Source: a virus
Strand: one strand, 5' to 3'
DNA length: 42,515 nt
IMG/VR virus record: IMGVR_UViG_3300045996_000594
Span: 1-42,515 of that record
This document shows, piece by piece, positions 4,300-27,070 of the stretch (position 1 is its first letter; every line of letters starts with the position of its first letter). The position numbers and the translations under genes were made by a program. The notes under the pieces are model-generated. The model saw only the letters and a list, made by a program, of their open reading frames with translations, was not told where the DNA came from and did no database searches.

Positions 4300-4757
4300 C
4301 AGACGCAGAGATGATCGCGGCTCTCGCGGGCAAGCTGGACAAGGACGAGCTAATGGCTCTCGCCTCCAGGCTGAACCGCAAGAAGCCAAAGGAATTGGTG
4401 CCGACAAACGAAGAAACGGAGCAGTTCGAGCGGCTCTGGACACTCCGCAGACAGTTCACCAAGCGCCCCGGCGACCCTAAGCGCCCCGCTCTTTTTAAGT
4501 TCTGTCGACGCATGCGCGAGAAGCCAGTTGCAATCGAGGAAATCGAACACGGCATCCGCTGCGAATACAGCGCCAAGAAAGAACGCCCCGAACACTACTG
4601 CCAGATGGAAACATTCATGAGCCAACGGCGGTGGGAGAATTACGACTGGGCAGCGGTGAAGATGGCTTCGGAGCGTGGAAAGAACGTTGTCCCGATCCGC
4701 AGCAATTACAAGTCGGCTTTCTTACAGGAGTGGGAAAGCAAGAGGGCTGAGCAATGA
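4296..4757 (+). CDS. Replication-protein C-terminal-like protein, 153 aa
   Basis: After a helical N-terminus (MTDAEMIAALAGKLDKDEL) the segment FERLWTLRRQFTKRPGDPKR through to MSQRRWENYDW resembles the C-terminal portion of phage replication initiators that end in a conserved Trp motif after a helical pair. No winged-helix initiator domain precedes it; the winged-helix gene at 41212 might supply that part in trans. Assignment is by pattern only. The start at 4296 is fixed by the ATGA overlap. Confidence 0.6.
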   Translation: MTDAEMIAALAGKLDKDELMALASRLNRKKPKELVPTNEETEQFERLWTLRRQFTKRPGDPKRPALFKFCRRMREKPVAIEEIEHGIRCEYSAKKERPEHYCQMETFMSQRRWENYDWAAVKMASERGKNVVPIRSNYKSAFLQEWESKRAEQ

Positions 4758-4966
4758 GAGCCGTTGATGACGAACTGCTTCTAAGGGCCTTCCGCTCCGG
4801 CAGCGACACATTCCGAATCGCCAAGAGCATGAACATGACCGAAGCCACGGTTTCCAGGCACATCTGGGTTGCGCGCTGCCGTGAGAAGAACCGTCCGGCG
4901 ATCTACATCGGCAAGAACGATGTGCTGAAGCGCATATCCGATCAGCCAATTCTCAAGACAGCGTAG
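4754..4966 (+). CDS. Small helix-turn-helix protein, 70 aa
   Basis: The first 45 residues form a likely homeodomain-like helix-turn-helix: LLLRAFRSGSDTFRIAKSMN, then MTEATVSRHIWVAR. It resembles small site-sensing proteins in the same place in other alphaproteobacterial phages. Its target is unknown. ATG overlaps the previous stop (ATGA), and the next gene follows after 10 bases with its own ribosome site. Confidence 0.68.
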   Translation: MRAVDDELLLRAFRSGSDTFRIAKSMNMTEATVSRHIWVARCREKNRPAIYIGKNDVLKRISDQPILKTA

Positions 4967-4976
4967 GAGTAAAAGC

Positions 4977-5456
4977 ATGCAACTATTTTCGTATCACAAC
5001 ACTATGCGGAACGCGAAGTTCAAGGCACCACCGCCACCGCCGGAGCCTCGTGAGACGGTTATGGAACGCGTCAAGACGGCGTGGGAGCAGAAACTTCGGG
5101 CAGATAGCCGCTACGATGAAATCCTGGCGAGTGCAGTTGATCGGTTCCCTGAGTTGCGCCCGCCCTCATCTTCGCGGCCTCTCGTCAAGGACATCATTCG
5201 TCGGGTTGCATTGAGGCACGGACTGCCAATCGGCCTCATCAAGGGCAATAGGCGGTCCAAGCACATTGTAGCGGCTCGGCATGAGGCCATTGTCGAAGCG
5301 GCGTTGGCGCGGCCCGACATGAGCCTTCCCGAACTTGGCCGGCAGTTCGGGGGCAGGGACCACACGACCATCCTCCATGCCCTTCGGAAGGCTGGCATAT
5401 ACCGAAACACCAAAAACTTCCGCCCCGGCACAACAGGGAAGGACACACACGGATGA
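4977..5456 (+). CDS. DnaA domain IV-like DNA-binding protein, 159 aa
   Basis: Residues 69-140 match DnaA domain IV, the part that binds DnaA boxes. RRSKHIVAARHEAI is followed by the signature GRQFGGRDHTTILHA (121-135). There is no AAA+ ATPase domain; in its place are 65 N-terminal residues with a Pro-rich run (KAPPPPPEPRE). The protein may mark the phage origin for the host replisome or compete with host DnaA. GGAG stands 9 bases upstream of ATG 4977; a later ATG at 5004 is possible. Confidence 0.85.
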   Translation: MQLFSYHNTMRNAKFKAPPPPPEPRETVMERVKTAWEQKLRADSRYDEILASAVDRFPELRPPSSSRPLVKDIIRRVALRHGLPIGLIKGNRRSKHIVAARHEAIVEAALARPDMSLPELGRQFGGRDHTTILHALRKAGIYRNTKNFRPGTTGKDTHG

Positions 5457-5650: not shown

Positions 5651-6205
5651 GTGAAAGCCCGCACACAAGCACAGAAGCGCAGGAGAGGACGGCCACGCAT
5701 GGAAACCGCATACCGTGAGCCCAATGGCCGCCCATCGCGCTCCAGTGAGCCGCCAGACGCCGTAGCGCTCGAAGCAAGGGCTCGCCACATCGGGCTGACC
5801 CTCATCAAGGCCAAAGACCAGCGTGCCGCTACATTCATTGGCTATTTGAACATCCTTGGGCCGATCGATGGCCTGAGTGATCGGCAATACGATGCCGCCA
5901 TCAAATATCTCGACTTGAGAGACGCATACCTCCAGACGCTCAAGGCGCCCAATGCCGAAGTCGATAACGAAGGCGGCGGAATGCCGAATGAGTTCGTTTC
6001 GCCGGCATATGAGGACTGGTGCCAGGACACACGTGAAACATGGGACGAATGCCGGAAAGCAATCCAAGAGACGCAGAACGAGAACCGCAGCGAGAACCTG
6101 TGGGCCGCGCTCGATCTGTGCATCATCCACAGCCATCGCGTTCATCACCTGATCGGGGCAACACGCCTTGTGTGTAATTGCCTGGTGAAATTTTTCCGGT
6201 GTTGA
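5651..6205 (+). CDS. Hypothetical protein, basic N-terminus, 184 aa
   Basis: Starts with GTG at 5651 behind ACGAGGAAA. The N-terminus is strongly basic (KARTQAQKRRRGRPR, with an AT-hook-like RRGRPR), suggesting DNA contact. The middle has GLSDRQYDAAIKYLDLRDAY and the end WAALDLCIIHSHRVHHLIGA. Basic starts of this type are common in rhizobial phage proteins lying ahead of the packaging genes, so a packaging or DNA-binding role is possible. It is the last gene before the late promoter, whose -35 overlaps its stop. Confidence 0.7.
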   Translation: MKARTQAQKRRRGRPRMETAYREPNGRPSRSSEPPDAVALEARARHIGLTLIKAKDQRAATFIGYLNILGPIDGLSDRQYDAAIKYLDLRDAYLQTLKAPNAEVDNEGGGMPNEFVSPAYEDWCQDTRETWDECRKAIQETQNENRSENLWAALDLCIIHSHRVHHLIGATRLVCNCLVKFFRC

Positions 6206-6230
6206 CTTTCTGAGGCAAATCAGGAATAAA
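6202..6230 (+). promoter_or_regulatory. Candidate late promoter (TTGACT-N17-AATAAA)
   Basis: TTGACT at 6202-6207 matches the sigma-70 -35 box at five of six bases. AATAAA at 6225-6230 lies 17 bases downstream and matches the -10 at four of six. Transcription would start near 6237, just after the last early gene and ahead of the packaging genes. A terminator-like hairpin lies only about 30 bases further on, which recalls the lambdoid late promoter layout. Confidence 0.6.
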
Positions 6231-6268
6231 TGACGCCATCCTTCACTTTCCCGAATTTGCGCCCATAG

Positions 6269-6299
6269 CCCGCCCGGAGAAATTCGCGGCGGGTTTTCA
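6269..6299 (+). terminator. Terminator-like hairpin in late leader
   Basis: CCCGCC (6269-6274) pairs with GGCGGG (6288-6293), leaving a 13-base loop, and is followed directly by TTTTCATTT. The stem is short but all G-C. The same GGCGGG can instead pair with a second CCCGCC at 6304-6309, so the terminator has a built-in competitor. Confidence 0.55.
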
Positions 6300-6300
6300 T

Positions 6301-6364
6301 TTGCCCGCCAACGCCTGACACCCAGTGTCCGCTATCTAGCAACAGAGGCCGTGTGTGCGGGCAA
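6301..6364 (+). promoter_or_regulatory. Structured leader with alternative stems
   Basis: TTGCCCGC (6301-6308) is a perfect inverted partner of GCGGGCAA (6357-6364), and GACAC-CCA-GTGTC forms a small hairpin inside that loop. With the upstream CCCGCC and GGCGGG segments this gives four elements able to pair 1:2 (terminator), 2:3 or 3:4. That arrangement is typical of attenuators. The last arm ends 8 bases before the AGGAG site of the 6386 mini-gene. Confidence 0.45.
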
Positions 6365-6385
6365 GCCCCTCCAGGAGTTAAAACC

Positions 6386-6475
6386 ATGCGCGAAATAGAA
6401 GGTTGGGGCGGTGGGAACCTCGGTGACGGCATTGGTGAAGTCATCATTACTGGCGACGGCGGAACCATCATCTAG
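6386..6475 (+). CDS. Gly-rich 29-aa mini-protein
   Basis: A short gene with a strong AGGAG site 8 bases before its ATG. The peptide MREIEGWGGGNLGDGIGEV continues IITGDGGTII and then stops with TAG. It is acidic, 11 of 29 residues are Gly, and it has no Cys. It is too short for any family I know. It could be a leader peptide translated in the attenuator-like leader, a virion peptide, or a precursor of a modified peptide; no modifying enzyme is nearby. Its site strength makes translation likely. Confidence 0.5.
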   Translation: MREIEGWGGGNLGDGIGEVIITGDGGTII

Positions 6476-6549: not shown

Positions 6550-6786
6550 ATGGCAGCCCGTGCGAACAAAATTCGCCACGATGACACTACCCGCGCCAAA
6601 ATTCAGGCAGGCGTTATCATTGATCGCTTCACCAAATGTCTGAATGGCGACATCGAACTTTCACCGACACAGGTCAGTTGCGGAAAAGCCTTGCTTAACA
6701 AGGTGATACCAGACATCCAATCGGTGAGCATCGATGCAAACGTCGGGATGACTGTCACAATCGCCAAGGAAGCGGCTGATCTGTGA
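6550..6786 (+). CDS. Putative small terminase subunit-like protein, 78 aa
   Basis: Begins MAARANKIRHDDTTRAKIQAG and continues IIDRFTKCLNGDIELSPTQVSCGKALLNKV. This helical pattern belongs to a common podophage protein that sits just ahead of the large terminase gene. Position and DNA-binding-like helices suggest it is the small terminase subunit that recognises phage DNA, but this is inference from place rather than proven homology. GAGGA lies upstream of the ATG, and its stop overlaps the next start. Confidence 0.65.
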   Translation: MAARANKIRHDDTTRAKIQAGVIIDRFTKCLNGDIELSPTQVSCGKALLNKVIPDIQSVSIDANVGMTVTIAKEAADL

Positions 6787-8933: not shown

Positions 8934-8976
8934 AGACGTTGCCGCGTCGGCTCAAAAGAAGAAGCTTGGTGCCTGA
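8788..8976 (+). CDS. Small Pro/Ala-rich protein, 62 aa
   Basis: ATG at 8788 has GGAGC upstream, and its stop overlaps the portal start (TGATG). The protein starts MCFAKPPDPKPAPPPPDPNK and continues with a helix ending in SAQKKKLGA. Similar short Pro-rich proteins lie ahead of the portal in BPP-1-like and other podophages; function unknown. Its first 146 bases lie inside the out-of-frame tail of the preceding gene. Confidence 0.7.
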   Translation: MCFAKPPDPKPAPPPPDPNKATLAAASEMRRAGSGASASKNILARLSDEDVAASAQKKKLGA

Positions 8977-10574
8977 TGGATACCGAAACCATTTGCAAGC
9001 GATATGACGCCCTGAAGGGTAATCGCGGCACATGGGAGAGCCATTGGCAGGAGGTGGCTGAATACATCTTCCCGAGGCGCGCTGACTTCAATGTCACTCG
9101 TTCCGAGGGTGATAAGCGCATGACCAAGGTGTACGACAGCACCGGCATTCAGGCGCTGGAACTGTTGGCTGCTGGCCTGCATGGCATGGCGTCGAATCCT
9201 GCTTCGCGGTGGTTTTCGCTGAAGACCGGCAATTCCGAACTGGATGAGAACGACGCGGTAAGGGAGTGGCTGGCGAACGTTGAAGACCACATCTTCGCCA
9301 AGATGCATTCTCCCGGCTCTTCGATCACCACGCATCTGCACGAACTGTATCTGGACTTCGCAGGCTTTGGCACGGCGCTGATGTTCATCGGCGTAGGCAA
9401 GAAGGACAATCTGCTTTTCCAGACGCGGTTCCTTGGCGAGTGCGTCATTGACGAGAATGCAGAGGGTGAGGTCGATACCGTCATTCGCTGCTTCTCCATG
9501 ACTGTGCGCCAGGTCATGCAGAAATGGGGCGATAGAGCCTCGGAGGACGTTAAGAAGAAGCACGCGGACGGCAAGGCGGATGACAAGGTGGAACTGCTCC
9601 ACTGCGTTTATCCGCGTGATGACAGGGATCCCCAGAAGGAAACCCCGGACAACATGCCGTGGGCTTCGATCTATCTGGAGAAGAAGGAGAAGCACGAGCT
9701 ACAGAACGGCGGGTTTGAGGAATTCCCGTACGCTGTTCCGCGCTGGTACAAGGTTGCCGGCGAGAAATATGGCCGCTCTCCTGCAATGACATCGCTTCCT
9801 GATGTGAAGATGCTTCAGGAGATGATGAAGACCACCATCAAGGCGGCTCAGAAGATTGTCGATCCGCCGCTGATGGTTCCCGATGACGGGATGGTTGGGC
9901 CGGTTCGGACTGTTCCGGGTGGCTTGAACTTCTATCGCGGCGAGCGTGAGATTGTACCGCTGGTCACGGGTGGCAATATCCCGATCAGTTTGGAGATGAT
10001 GCAGGACTTGCGTAATCGCATCCTGTCCACGTTCTTCGTTGACCAGCTCCAGATGACCGGCGATGCTGACATGACGGCAACCGAGGTCATTCAGCGCACG
10101 GAAGAACGCATGAGGCTTCTCGGCCCGATCCTGGGCCGCATGGAAGCCGAGTTGCTTGGCCCGATCATTTCGAGGGTATTCGGCATCCTGTTGCGTCAGG
10201 GACAGCTTCCAGATCAGCCACAGGAGCTTGATGGCGTCGAATGGCGTGTTGAGTACGTCAGCCCGATTGCCTTGGCTCAGAGGGGCCAGAAGGTTGAGCG
10301 TGCTGTTCAGATGCTCACCATTGCGGGGCAGATGGCGGCGTTCGATCCCGGTGTGATGGCACGCTTCGATAGCGAGAACTTCCTGCCGTGGATTGCGAAC
10401 GAACTTGGCGTCGATCCCGATATCATTCTTGACGATGACGAGTTCGCCCAGAAGCAACAGCAACAGCAGATGGCTGGCATGGTTGAACCGGCTCAGATGG
10501 CCGCAGATGCCTTTGCCAAGGCGGGGCAGGGCGCCAAGAGCTTTGCTGAAGCGCAGGAGGTAGGCAATGCCTAG
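8976..10574 (+). CDS. Portal (head-to-tail connector) protein, 532 aa
   Basis: Podovirus portal of the head-tail connector family, which forms the ring at the capsid vertex through which DNA passes. Landmarks are NRGTWESHWQEVAEYIFPRR near the start, GLHGMASNPASRWFSL, and the core ILSTFFVDQLQMTGDADMTA followed by TEVIQRTEERMRLLGPILGR. A Gln run near residue 490 leads into a flexible C-terminus. Length is typical. It begins on the preceding stop and overlaps the next gene by 8 bases. Confidence 0.96.
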   Translation: MDTETICKRYDALKGNRGTWESHWQEVAEYIFPRRADFNVTRSEGDKRMTKVYDSTGIQALELLAAGLHGMASNPASRWFSLKTGNSELDENDAVREWLANVEDHIFAKMHSPGSSITTHLHELYLDFAGFGTALMFIGVGKKDNLLFQTRFLGECVIDENAEGEVDTVIRCFSMTVRQVMQKWGDRASEDVKKKHADGKADDKVELLHCVYPRDDRDPQKETPDNMPWASIYLEKKEKHELQNGGFEEFPYAVPRWYKVAGEKYGRSPAMTSLPDVKMLQEMMKTTIKAAQKIVDPPLMVPDDGMVGPVRTVPGGLNFYRGEREIVPLVTGGNIPISLEMMQDLRNRILSTFFVDQLQMTGDADMTATEVIQRTEERMRLLGPILGRMEAELLGPIISRVFGILLRQGQLPDQPQELDGVEWRVEYVSPIALAQRGQKVERAVQMLTIAGQMAAFDPGVMARFDSENFLPWIANELGVDPDIILDDDEFAQKQQQQQMAGMVEPAQMAADAFAKAGQGAKSFAEAQEVGNA

Positions 10575-22891: not shown

Positions 22892-25378
22892 ATGCCCGAC
22901 ATCAGTCAATGGCAGTTTCCAAAGAACGTAGCCAATCAGGTTATTGGCTGGGCGCCTGACGGCAAGCGGCTCATCAATATTGATCCGAGCGCCGTAAGCG
23001 GGCTGCCTTCGCCAACGACTGCCCTGACATTCCTCTTCCGCAACGCTGGCAACACCGCTTATGAGGGGTTGAACGTTTTCGACACGCGGCAAGCGCTGGG
23101 ATCGGTAACGTTCGACACCAAGGCCGTGGCGGAAGCCTTCGATCCAGCGTCGTCGCCTGAGTTTCTTATCGCGGACAACCAGTATTACGACAAGACCGGC
23201 TCGGAACCGGCGCACGATGGCAAGTTACAGATCACCGAGGGCACTTGGTATGTCCTGCGCAAATCGCCTCTGGTCCAGTTGGAAGCGTTCCGGGACGACC
23301 TCGATATCGACGGTGTCGGGGATAGCTCCACCGGCTTCACAAAAGCGCTGGGGATGCTAGACGAGCTTGGCGGCGGAAAGCTGGTGTTCCCGCGTCAGGG
23401 ACAGTTCTTTGGCCGCATTACGGATATTCCATCGAACGTCGAAATTGACTTCAACTGGTCCAAGATCACGCCGGCCGACACACTCAACAACGCCATTTCG
23501 ATTGTCGGTTCGAAGAATGGCACAGAGTACGGGCTAAACACTGGCGCGGCTCAGGGTGATATCTCCATCGCGGTCAGTGGCGCTTCGGTGAATTTCGATG
23601 CGGGCGACGATATCATAATCTATGACAATTCCGACCGCCTAAGCGACGGCGCCACGGGCATCAACACGGAAATTCGTCGCGTTATTTCCAAGTCGGGCGC
23701 TTCGCCGGTCACTGTGATTTTCGACAAGCCCCTCGGCTTCAAGAAAGATGCCATTGTCGGCGCGGGTGTCGCGAAGATCACATGGAAAGAAAACATCAAA
23801 TTGCATCGGCTGGAGACAGCCGGCGCGGTCAGCACGGGCGGCAACGCTGGCATTCTTGCCAGATATACGAAAGACATTGAAGTCTACGACCGCAAGCACA
23901 GCAATGGCTATGGCACAGCGAATGATTTCAGGACATGTCAGAACGTCCGGGGCGGCGGCAGCCGTGATGTCGATCCTGCTGACGTTGGCCACTACCACAC
24001 TGGCTTTATCCAGGGGTCGCGCGACTGCCTTTGGGATGGGCAGGAAGACACTGGCGTTCGTCACTCTGTTGATTTCGACAGTGCTGACAATTGCCGCGCC
24101 ATCAACATCATCTCAACCGGTGCAACGTCAACGCCGTTCGTCTTGTCGCATAATGGCGCTGGCCAGGACTGTTTTGTTCAGGGCGAAGTGCGTAACGGGC
24201 CGGACGCGTCGGGCGGCTATGGATTCGTCAACACGCGCGGATGGAATTCCGTCACCGGCGAAGGCTCTGGCGAAAGCGCATGGGGCCTGATTGGTATGGG
24301 TTGCCGGATCAAGGGCCGCCAGAAGCGCGACACAGGCAGCGGCGCCGACTACGGTGTCTACTTCCAGCAGCCGATGAAGGACTTCGATATCGATATCGAC
24401 GCGGTTTGCGGCAGCGACACATCTTACGATCCTAGTGCGTCGGGTGTGTCGGCTGCTGTTCGCCTCTACCAGAACAGCAACAAGGGCAAGGTGCGTCTGC
24501 GGCGGGTGCGCGGCTACCAAGCTGCGCTGGGATCGTTCTCGGCCAGCAACGCCACTAGCAAACTGAATATCGTCGAAGTGCAGATGGATGATGTCGATTG
24601 GGTCGACTATGCCATCTACGCAGACGACGCCGATGGCTACAATATCAAGAAGCTGGTTTCAGGGTCGAACATCAACACGAAGTTGATCCATTTCGGCAAC
24701 GCTTCGGGCCGTCCGCTGCGACATATCGAGTTCGGCGATATTCGAACGTCCGTCACTGCGGCTAAGACGTTTGAAGGCACTGGCACTGGTTTTGACGGTG
24801 CAGCATCTGGAAACATAGGCTCTATCGACACGCCGACAACAATCAACACTAAGTCGGTATCAGCTAATACGACAATCTCGCAGGAAGAAATCTTCTGCGC
24901 TGGCAAGAACCCTATCCGCATTGACGCTTCCTCGGCAGCGTCGATCACGTCCATCGCGGCTGGCATGTTCGTCGGCCAGGAAATATCGATCTTTAATGCC
25001 GGCGCGTCCAATCTGTCGCTTCTGACGACCACGACAAACGTTTCTCTTGTAGCGAACATCGTGCTTGGATTGGCGCCTATTACGCTGATCTGGACCGCTG
25101 GCGCGTGGCGTCTCAAGGATGTGCGCGATCTGACCGGCAGCGCTACCTTCAACCCAACCAGTCTGGCGGATGGAGCTGGCGAGACAACGACAGTAACAGT
25201 CAACGGGGCATTGCTCGGTGATTTTGCCATCGCGTCGTTTAGCCTTGACACCACAGGCATCACGATCACGGCGTGGGTTAGCGCCTCAAACACCGTATCC
25301 GTTCGTTTTCAGAACGAAAGCGGGGGTGTTCTGGATATCGCTAGCGGCACGCTCAGGGCGCGGGTGATAAAGGTCTAG
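22892..25378 (+). CDS. Tailspike (beta-helix receptor-binding protein), 828 aa
   Basis: Receptor-binding protein. Residues 1-140 form the likely tail-attachment head domain. FRDDLDIDGVGDSSTGFTKA with LDELGGGKLVFPRQGQFFG is the usual entry into a right-handed parallel beta-helix, which runs to about 640 with repeats such as ASGGYGFVNTRGWNSVTGEG. The last 80 residues (SATFNPTSLADGAGETTTVT onward) are a beta domain shared by many phage fibres, probably for trimerisation or binding. A depolymerase activity is possible but no catalytic residues were identified. A GAGGAA site precedes the ATG. Confidence 0.9.
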   Translation: MPDISQWQFPKNVANQVIGWAPDGKRLINIDPSAVSGLPSPTTALTFLFRNAGNTAYEGLNVFDTRQALGSVTFDTKAVAEAFDPASSPEFLIADNQYYDKTGSEPAHDGKLQITEGTWYVLRKSPLVQLEAFRDDLDIDGVGDSSTGFTKALGMLDELGGGKLVFPRQGQFFGRITDIPSNVEIDFNWSKITPADTLNNAISIVGSKNGTEYGLNTGAAQGDISIAVSGASVNFDAGDDIIIYDNSDRLSDGATGINTEIRRVISKSGASPVTVIFDKPLGFKKDAIVGAGVAKITWKENIKLHRLETAGAVSTGGNAGILARYTKDIEVYDRKHSNGYGTANDFRTCQNVRGGGSRDVDPADVGHYHTGFIQGSRDCLWDGQEDTGVRHSVDFDSADNCRAINIISTGATSTPFVLSHNGAGQDCFVQGEVRNGPDASGGYGFVNTRGWNSVTGEGSGESAWGLIGMGCRIKGRQKRDTGSGADYGVYFQQPMKDFDIDIDAVCGSDTSYDPSASGVSAAVRLYQNSNKGKVRLRRVRGYQAALGSFSASNATSKLNIVEVQMDDVDWVDYAIYADDADGYNIKKLVSGSNINTKLIHFGNASGRPLRHIEFGDIRTSVTAAKTFEGTGTGFDGAASGNIGSIDTPTTINTKSVSANTTISQEEIFCAGKNPIRIDASSAASITSIAAGMFVGQEISIFNAGASNLSLLTTTTNVSLVANIVLGLAPITLIWTAGAWRLKDVRDLTGSATFNPTSLADGAGETTTVTVNGALLGDFAIASFSLDTTGITITAWVSASNTVSVRFQNESGGVLDIASGTLRARVIKV

Positions 25379-26420
25379 GCCTCAGCAAAAACCCCAGCTT
25401 GTAATTGCGTTCGAACACGTAATACGACCAGTGAGATACAAGCCACACAACGGGCGGGTAGACGGTGAACATCATCGCCGTCTCCCACCAGTTGTAGGCT
25501 CCGTCCGATCCAAGCAGGTAATAGTTGCCGAACAGGATCACCGGCCAGTGCCAGATATAGAGCGAGAAGGAAATCTTGCCGAGATAGTGGACGGTTTGGG
25601 ATAGTCGGGTGTTGCGGTTCGGTAGAGTGGCAAACGACAGCACGAGAAGCGCCATCGGCACGCTTTTCAGCAGAACGTTGTCGTACCCCTTGAGGTACTG
25701 CGGGAAGCACAGGAGCCCGACAGTCAGCGCCAAGCCGGTCACCCCAAGCGCCATCCCGTGATCGCGAACGCCCTCCCGGAGATAGACCAGACCGGCCCCG
25801 AGGAAGAACGGCAGCATCAAGGCCTGATGCTCGACTAACGCGCCACCCCAAAAGAGGAACGCAGCACAAGCGGCGGCGACAACAAGGTTCGCGAGCGTCG
25901 GGCGGCTAAGCGCTCCGACCAAAGCGACGAGGATGTAGAACGTCCACTCGATGATGAGCGTCCACCCCGGCCAGTTCCACTCCCTGCCAAACCCCGTCAT
26001 CGAGGCAAGGATCGACCAAAAATTGTAGTCATAATAGCGTGGCCACGGCGTTCCTGGGTGAAGCGTCTGGTAGACGTAAGCCAAGACAACGCTCACCAGA
26101 GTTGCCGGCGCGCAAACCGATGCTAGCCGCGTGAAGCGGAAGAAAAGGAACTCGACATATTTGCCCTCGGGCATGATGTCACGCCGGATGTAGAGCGTGA
26201 TGACGAAGCCAGAGAGGACGAAGAAGCCGATGACAGCGAAGGTGCTGAGCGGCTGCAATACGGCCCATCCAACGAGGTAGGCGTTTTCCTGCCACGATCC
26301 TTGCGGCATGAACGCCGTGTACCGGATATGGGCAAACAGATGGTAGATGAAGACGGCGAGCGCGCAAAGACCGCGAAAGCCGTCAAGGTTCCCGATCCGG
26401 TCGGCTTTGACGGCAGGCAC
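25353..26420 (-). CDS. Membrane O-acyltransferase (OafA-like), 355 aa
   Basis: Acyltransferase family 3 integral membrane enzyme. The N-terminus has the signature RIGNLDGFRGLCALAVFIYH with Arg 16 and the likely catalytic His 27, followed by about ten hydrophobic spans, including FFVLSGFVITLYI and IWHWPVILFGNYYL. Such enzymes acetylate O-antigen or other surface sugars. It overlaps the tailspike end by 26 bases, tail to tail. The GTG start overlaps the previous stop by one base. Likely expressed in the lysogen as a surface-conversion gene. Confidence 0.93.
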   Translation of the reverse strand: MPAVKADRIGNLDGFRGLCALAVFIYHLFAHIRYTAFMPQGSWQENAYLVGWAVLQPLSTFAVIGFFVLSGFVITLYIRRDIMPEGKYVEFLFFRFTRLASVCAPATLVSVVLAYVYQTLHPGTPWPRYYDYNFWSILASMTGFGREWNWPGWTLIIEWTFYILVALVGALSRPTLANLVVAAACAAFLFWGGALVEHQALMLPFFLGAGLVYLREGVRDHGMALGVTGLALTVGLLCFPQYLKGYDNVLLKSVPMALLVLSFATLPNRNTRLSQTVHYLGKISFSLYIWHWPVILFGNYYLLGSDGAYNWWETAMMFTVYPPVVWLVSHWSYYVFERNYKLGFLLRPRPLSPAP

Positions 26421-27070
26421 TAGCGGACGAGCGGTTTCGCGGGATTGCCGACAACGGTAGCGCCCGGCTCCACATCCTTGGTTACAACGGCTCCCGCACC
26501 GATCACGGCACCCTTGCCGATCGTCAGGAACTTGTCCGGCCTGCCGGGGAGAAATGTTGCGTCGGATCCCACATAAACGTCATCCTCGATCTTGATCCGG
26601 CCATTGACTGACACTTTCGGAGCCAGCGTCACGAAGTCGCCAACGATGCAGTCATGCGCCACGTAGGAATAAATGTTGCAGTGGAACGCCTTTCCGATCC
26701 TGGCGTCTGACGTGACCATCGTAAGGTGAGAGAAAATCGCCCCCTCATCGAGATCAACGTTGTCGCCAATGATGGAAGTCGGCGCAATGGAATGAAAGAA
26801 CGGCAAGCCATCCCGCTGGCACCGTTCGAACTTCTCCCGCCGCAGCTTGGGCGGGGCGAAGGCGATATTCACGGATAGGCCTTTGATCGTAAGCGCTTCC
26901 TCATAGGAGATGACCCGGCTTCCGTGGATCATCGTCCCCTGGCTGGCGGGATCGTCATCGATAAAGACGAACTCGCTGGCGTCATCGGAAGTCATTCCTT
27001 GTGAATCTAGAAAGCCGGCGCGGGTTTCGCGGGCAAAGCCGCCAGCGCTGTAGAAGGCAAAAGTTTTCAT
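26420..27070 (-). CDS. NeuD/PglD-like sugar O/N-acetyltransferase, 216 aa
   Basis: The N-terminal small nucleotide-sugar-binding domain (KTFAFYSAGGFARETRAGFL, then EFVFIDDDPASQGTMI) precedes a left-handed beta-helix of hexapeptide repeats. These include IIGDNVDLDEGAIFSHLTMV and IGKGAVIGAGAVVTKDVEPG, and the protein ends VVGNPAKPLVR. The His in SYVAHDCIVGDFV is placed like the catalytic His. It probably acetylates a sugar precursor. ATG with GGAG upstream, overlapping the stop of the mini-gene at 27067. Confidence 0.92.
   Translation of the reverse strand: MKTFAFYSAGGFARETRAGFLDSQGMTSDDASEFVFIDDDPASQGTMIHGSRVISYEEALTIKGLSVNIAFAPPKLRREKFERCQRDGLPFFHSIAPTSIIGDNVDLDEGAIFSHLTMVTSDARIGKAFHCNIYSYVAHDCIVGDFVTLAPKVSVNGRIKIEDDVYVGSDATFLPGRPDKFLTIGKGAVIGAGAVVTKDVEPGATVVGNPAKPLVR

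Follow-up and report, generated by a model that had tools for sequence, protein, structure and literature searches.

The virus DNA analysed here (the window, a whole virus record of 42,515 bases) is quite likely to carry the site from which a temperate alphaproteobacterial phage controls its late genes; here a layout like the Q/PR′/tR′ region of lambda would be worked by a GafZ-like protein. In the proposed mechanism, for which the start site, termination, DNA binding, loading and antitermination are inferred and the arrangement of gene, motif and terminator, its recurrence and the remote GafZ homology are computed, the early operon would end with a GafY-like DnaA-domain-IV protein and then the GafZ-like protein of ORF 5651–6205. 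Until the GafZ-like protein is present, transcripts from the promoter at 6202–6230 would stop at the hairpin at 6267–6297, after about 60 nt. Its synthesis would allow binding at CAAATCA, between the −35 and −10 boxes, and loading onto RNA polymerase, which the protein would then take past the terminator to the genes for terminase and virion. The features concerned are as follows.

4754–4966, plus strand: small HTH ORF, weakly GerE/LuxR-like (Pfam GerE 15 bits, under the cut-off)
4977–5456, plus strand: DnaA-domain-IV-like DNA-binding protein with the position and domain of GafY (PF08299, 56.2 bits)
5651–6205, plus strand: putative late antiterminator, GafZ-like (phrog_15385, 'unknown function', PHROG 123 bits)
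6202–6230, plus strand: putative late promoter, with −35 TTGACT at 6202–6207, a 17-nt spacer and −10 AATAAA at 6225–6230
6216–6222, plus strand: CAAATCA element lying between −35 and −10, a putative binding site for the antiterminator and QBE/ZBE analogue
6267–6297, plus strand: intrinsic terminator, with stem CCCGCC 6269–6274/GGCGGG 6288–6293 and TTTT 6294–6297
6300–6365, plus strand: second hairpin TTTGCCCGC..GCGGGCAAG, 3′ of the terminator
6386–6475, plus strand: glycine-rich mini-ORF of 29 aa read from the sequence, with RBS AGGAG and ATG at 6386
6550–6786, plus strand: putative terminase small subunit (TerS), with a C-terminal VTIAKEAADL common to the ORF before TerL in L001/L005
6928–8331, plus strand: terminase large subunit (TerL), start of the late genes (phrog_979, 218 bits)
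8976–10574, 3′ of TerL: head-tail adaptor/portal-like protein

The window also encodes an integrase. The leader had been placed at an early/late boundary, and the gene order bears this out, with TerL and the head-tail adaptor/portal-like protein both coming after it. A small LuxR-family HTH gene is also annotated ahead of the homologous gene in phages RHph_N3_2, RHEph18, Y25 and I3_18. A similarity search found no DNA similarity between the leader region and known phages, the mini-ORF has no relative among the loci fetched for comparison, and ORF 6550–6786 has no PHROG, Pfam or NCBIfam match. In L001, L003 and L005 a conserved non-coding stretch with two small inverted repeats lies between TerS and TerL (e.g. 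TGCCCCGAAACACGGCGTTATACCAATCGGCGGTTGAAA). Elsewhere in the window, at 25353–27070 on the minus strand, are acyltransferase and hexapeptide-transferase genes, for which a role in prophage surface-polysaccharide modification is possible.

Which gene might encode the antiterminator? The initial annotation had seen no known one, and this holds for curated families, the product of ORF 5651–6205 having no Pfam (E up to 0.1) or NCBIfam match and no curated Q, NusG or DUF6456 match. It does not hold in the wider sense, as from its sequence and place the antiterminator gene is probably ORF 5651–6205, a candidate directly upstream with an apparent remote homology to GafZ. The predicted structure of the product is all-helical (pLDDT 80.5); no PDB sequence or fold match was found, and a viral fold search gave no informative match. 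Homologs, joined into one family by iterated HMM, are present in 31 of 298 sampled genomes of Rhizobiaceae (the family of Ciceribacter), 37 of 397 sampled Hyphomicrobiales genomes, 41 + 6 IMG/VR loci, the relative L001 and seven isolated Rhizobium phages, where they are annotated 'hypothetical protein'; searches started from single proteins (that of the window and two relatives) gave no annotated phage. By profile, the subfamilies of window type and L001 type match each other (97.6%). Among the regions fetched, five isolated phages have the gene 5′ of the annotated large-terminase gene and in the same orientation, and the family is kept at this place before the late genes in prophages with diverse terminases. 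Many homologs (L286, L289–L304, L234, L235, L237, L241) carry, at their stop codon, a terminal palindrome resembling TAGGAATATTATCCTA; this subgroup, kept in the family statistics as one cluster or a few, appears to have a different, chromosomal context and is possibly a domesticated chromosomal regulator. At L228:690–1441 (minus strand) tmRNA and tRNA genes lie directly 3′ of the GafZ-like gene, and tRNAs are found there in L227 and L322 too.

The GafZ protein of Caulobacter is an experimentally supported anti-terminator with an element between −10 and −35 (PMC11150451), and it works with GafY, a DnaA-domain-IV homolog (PMC9632790). PMC9765227 and PMC9638019 describe GafA as the fused form, annotated DUF6456, and a GafA homolog has been noted before in a roseophage (PMC6363796). 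The present family is probably remotely homologous to DUF6456/GafZ, a relationship that emerges from profile comparison. Aligned by hhalign against 37 DUF6456 proteins, the 72-row family gave a probability of 95.7% and a score of 63.6 (19.3 when reversed, 15.9 for the best shuffle), and a 34-row window-like subset gave 90.7%. Only deep alignments were significant: small sub-alignments gave nothing significant, the closest seven-sequence profile of the window protein (A5) does not reach DUF6456, and a search with the Pfam model at E up to 1 found DUF6456 absent in ten relatives of the window protein. Among 14 control genomes DUF6456 matches Caulobacter alone. Of the 72 family representatives, 29 have a DnaA-domain-IV gene 5′ of the family gene and in the same orientation.

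The GafY/GafZ pair of the Caulobacter crescentus gene transfer agent likewise combines a DnaA-domain-IV protein with an anti-terminator, has its element between −35 and −10 with a terminator 3′ of it, and controls a capsid-gene cluster, as the window switch would (PMC11150451, PMC9632790). Unlike GafZ (GafA in Rhodobacter capsulatus; DUF6456/PF20057), the window gene is in a phage with an integrase and adjoins its would-be promoter, and the window protein is under DUF6456 detection by an ordinary HMM. The element itself also differs, the palindromic ZBE of Caulobacter being GCGCCCG-CTGGCGC whereas the window has CAAATCA at the same location. No solved structure of a GafZ-type anti-terminator was found, and a literature search found no paper on phage late control by this family.

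The TTGACT-N17-AATAAA promoter hexamers of the initial annotation are present, the −10 box being weak. A scan with the sigma70 consensus passes over the putative promoter, so that its hexamers by themselves do not exceed chance; it is the comparison with relatives that lifts them above that level. The pattern TTG-N10/11-CAAATCA occurs a single time in the 42.5-kb window, counting both strands, exactly at 6202, and is found again at the corresponding position in relatives, of which L272 preserves TTGACA..GCAAATCAGCG AATAAA TGAC. Of all 7-mers around the 3′ ends of the family, CAAATCA is the most strongly enriched (20 of 78 regions against 16 of 1131 background windows, ln p = −43), and its offset from TTG in these 78 regions is mostly 13–14 nt, which is to say between −35 and −10; the cases with the fixed offset include four isolated Rhizobium phages. 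A second class of family ends has CAAATCA 4–6 nt after TTG, and L326 has both classes. The order TTGAC, CAAATCA, terminator is found repeatedly at family 3′ ends. As a separate observation, TTGATTC is over-represented close to the gene ends (7/78 versus 0/1131), where it typically comes right after the terminator T-run.

Gene and promoter are interlocked in the window, the TGA stop of ORF 5651–6205 (6203–6205) falling inside the TTGACT −35 box. For the family as a whole, 3′ ends were grouped into 72 clusters at 75% identity and set against 853 other ORF ends from the same loci. The stop codon lies inside TTGAC in 16 of 72 family representatives versus 24 of 853 control ends, and with TGA stops alone the figures are 16/45 and 24/515. 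TTGAC near the stop together with a terminator is found in 10 of 72 clusters versus none of the 853 controls. By strict patterns, motif plus terminator is a feature of a minority of family members, and some homologs are chromosomal or are without both.

In a forward test, IMG/VR was scanned with CTTGAC-N8-GCAAATCAG, that is with DNA alone, which gave 80 loci among the matches listed. A family member is encoded in 13 of these 80 listed loci (roughly nine distinct, given near-duplicates), always on the motif strand, as against 1/48 loci of an unrelated scan used as control. The motif lies within 200 nt of the 3′ end of the gene in 10 of the 13 family-bearing loci among the matches listed, and on the same basis a terminator follows the motif in 10/13 of them versus 1/67 of the others. 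The one exception, L425, has the motif after an ORF whose end is TTGAC and which resembles the family weakly over a short stretch.

The recurrence of gene, CAAATCA and terminator in relatives gives strong comparative backing to the earlier idea of a Q-like antitermination point. Lambda-type Q/QBE/PR′/tR′ systems have the same order of genes, likewise with an element inside the promoter and an early terminator ahead of the late genes. In the window the antiterminator candidate gene is directly 5′ of the putative late promoter, an arrangement recurrent in relatives; a specific element, CAAATCA, enriched, position-fixed and predicted to be bound, lies between −35 and −10; and the intrinsic terminator at 6267–6297 is found shortly 3′ of the promoter, before the late genes. 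Unlike lambda-type Q, the window protein has no sequence relation to curated Q families and no fold match in the PDB. According to PMC9371919, AlpA of Pseudomonas aeruginosa likewise uses an element within the promoter to load an anti-terminator past a downstream intrinsic terminator, but it serves a host cell-death operon rather than a phage late operon and no relation to the window protein was found. NusG paralogs of the RfaH/LoaP type are a further comparison. The window has no match to the NusG N-terminal domain (PF02357), while the relative L005 encodes a NusG-domain protein (L005:2058–2597; PF02357, 60 bits) upstream of its late region, an area in which no GafZ-like gene was found; this protein may be an exchangeable antiterminator.

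It is unlikely that the GafZ-like protein is instead a transcription activator of the late promoter and the hairpin a mere terminator of the early operon. The weak −10 is what an activated promoter would be expected to have, and an activator role of this kind has been proposed for GafA in R. capsulatus, which acts on RcGTA via the omega subunit of RNA polymerase (PMC9638019). Set against this, both the window and many relatives have the terminator 3′ of the promoter, so that late transcripts must still pass it; the placement of the element between −35 and −10, moreover, resembles that of QBE and ZBE.

The terminator on which antitermination would act is a hairpin of −19.1 kcal/mol (z = −3.6, equalled by 1 of 200 shuffles) with a short T-tract (TTTTCATTTG), and terminators are found at the same place in relatives. 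The second hairpin (6300–6366) has −27.8 kcal/mol and z = −2.8, the fold of the whole leader reaching z = −2.0 only. The same hairpin arms, TTTGCCCGC..GCGGGCAAG, occur in L005 (3478–3545) at identical spacing around a divergent interior, just upstream of the terminase genes, and the shared hairpin may serve in packaging or as an mRNA element. That 6300–6365 is a packaging or terminase-recognition site (cos/pac) and not an RNA element has its position just 5′ of the terminase genes in its favour, as well as the retention of the arms in L005, which is without a GafZ-like gene there; it is nevertheless highly improbable, accounting for the second hairpin only and not for the promoter, CAAATCA or the terminator, and a pattern scan of IMG/VR gave no further clear case near terminases. 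The pattern TTTGCCCGC-N-GCGGGCAAG was rejected as a recurring element, the scan giving mostly chance matches; the one in L202 sits within a coding sequence, and L202 carries a family member by luck.

Two other structures were seen 3′ of the GafZ-like gene. In late leaders of L275, L282, L309, L223 and L387 a recurrent inverted repeat TCGGGAAG..CTTCCCGA around some 55–90 nt looks like a structured RNA, with no Rfam match in the loci searched. The isolated Rhizobium phages L387, L389, L390 and L391 have, 3′ of the gene, a conserved hairpin-like segment around GAGGCGAATGCC..GAGAGACTACATCGGCTTATGGATGTCTCTCCATTCCTCGTCGCCT.

The leader had also been read as four mutually competing segments forming an attenuator. 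All the parts named are present: CCCGCC/GGCGGG with TTTT, a second CCCGCC at 6304–6309, GCGGGC at 6357–6362, and the RBS AGGAG with its mini-gene. The complementarity is real but the mutual competition is not, the full-length fold forming 1:2 and 3:4 together, with 2:3 an alternative only when the terminator hairpin is not formed; in relatives it is a terminator that is kept at this spot, and not the scheme of four segments. An RNA attenuator, in which alternative pairing of leader segments decides termination, is the least probable account and can be set aside, for although the complementary segments exist and 2:3 pairing is stable once the 5′ arm is taken away, the other possible partner of the terminator 3′ arm (6304–6309) lies 3′ of the release point at about 6297 and so is transcribed too late, the strongest fold that can form ahead of release if the 5′ arm is blocked has −11.5 versus −19.1 kcal/mol, the antiterminator pairing before release that marks an attenuator or riboswitch leader is not found, and no Rfam family matches the window.

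With the GafZ-like switch as the preferred reading, a broader proposition has about even chances, namely that processive antiterminators of GafZ type would form a large superfamily, so far unrecognised, whose members would be loaded at CAAATCA in late promoters and run the late genes of many temperate Hyphomicrobiales phages, and that the GTA regulators GafY/GafZ would have been recruited from a phage module of this kind. With this finding, a family of proteins with no assigned function, common among phages infecting rhizobia and related bacteria, gains a probable role; the finding also points to a predictable late-promoter signature. The gene is present in seven isolated Rhizobium phages and is therefore testable in laboratory strains, and the phage proteins are small and perhaps easier structural subjects than GafZ. 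The comparison suggests, finally, that gene transfer agents and living phages use the same kind of late switch.
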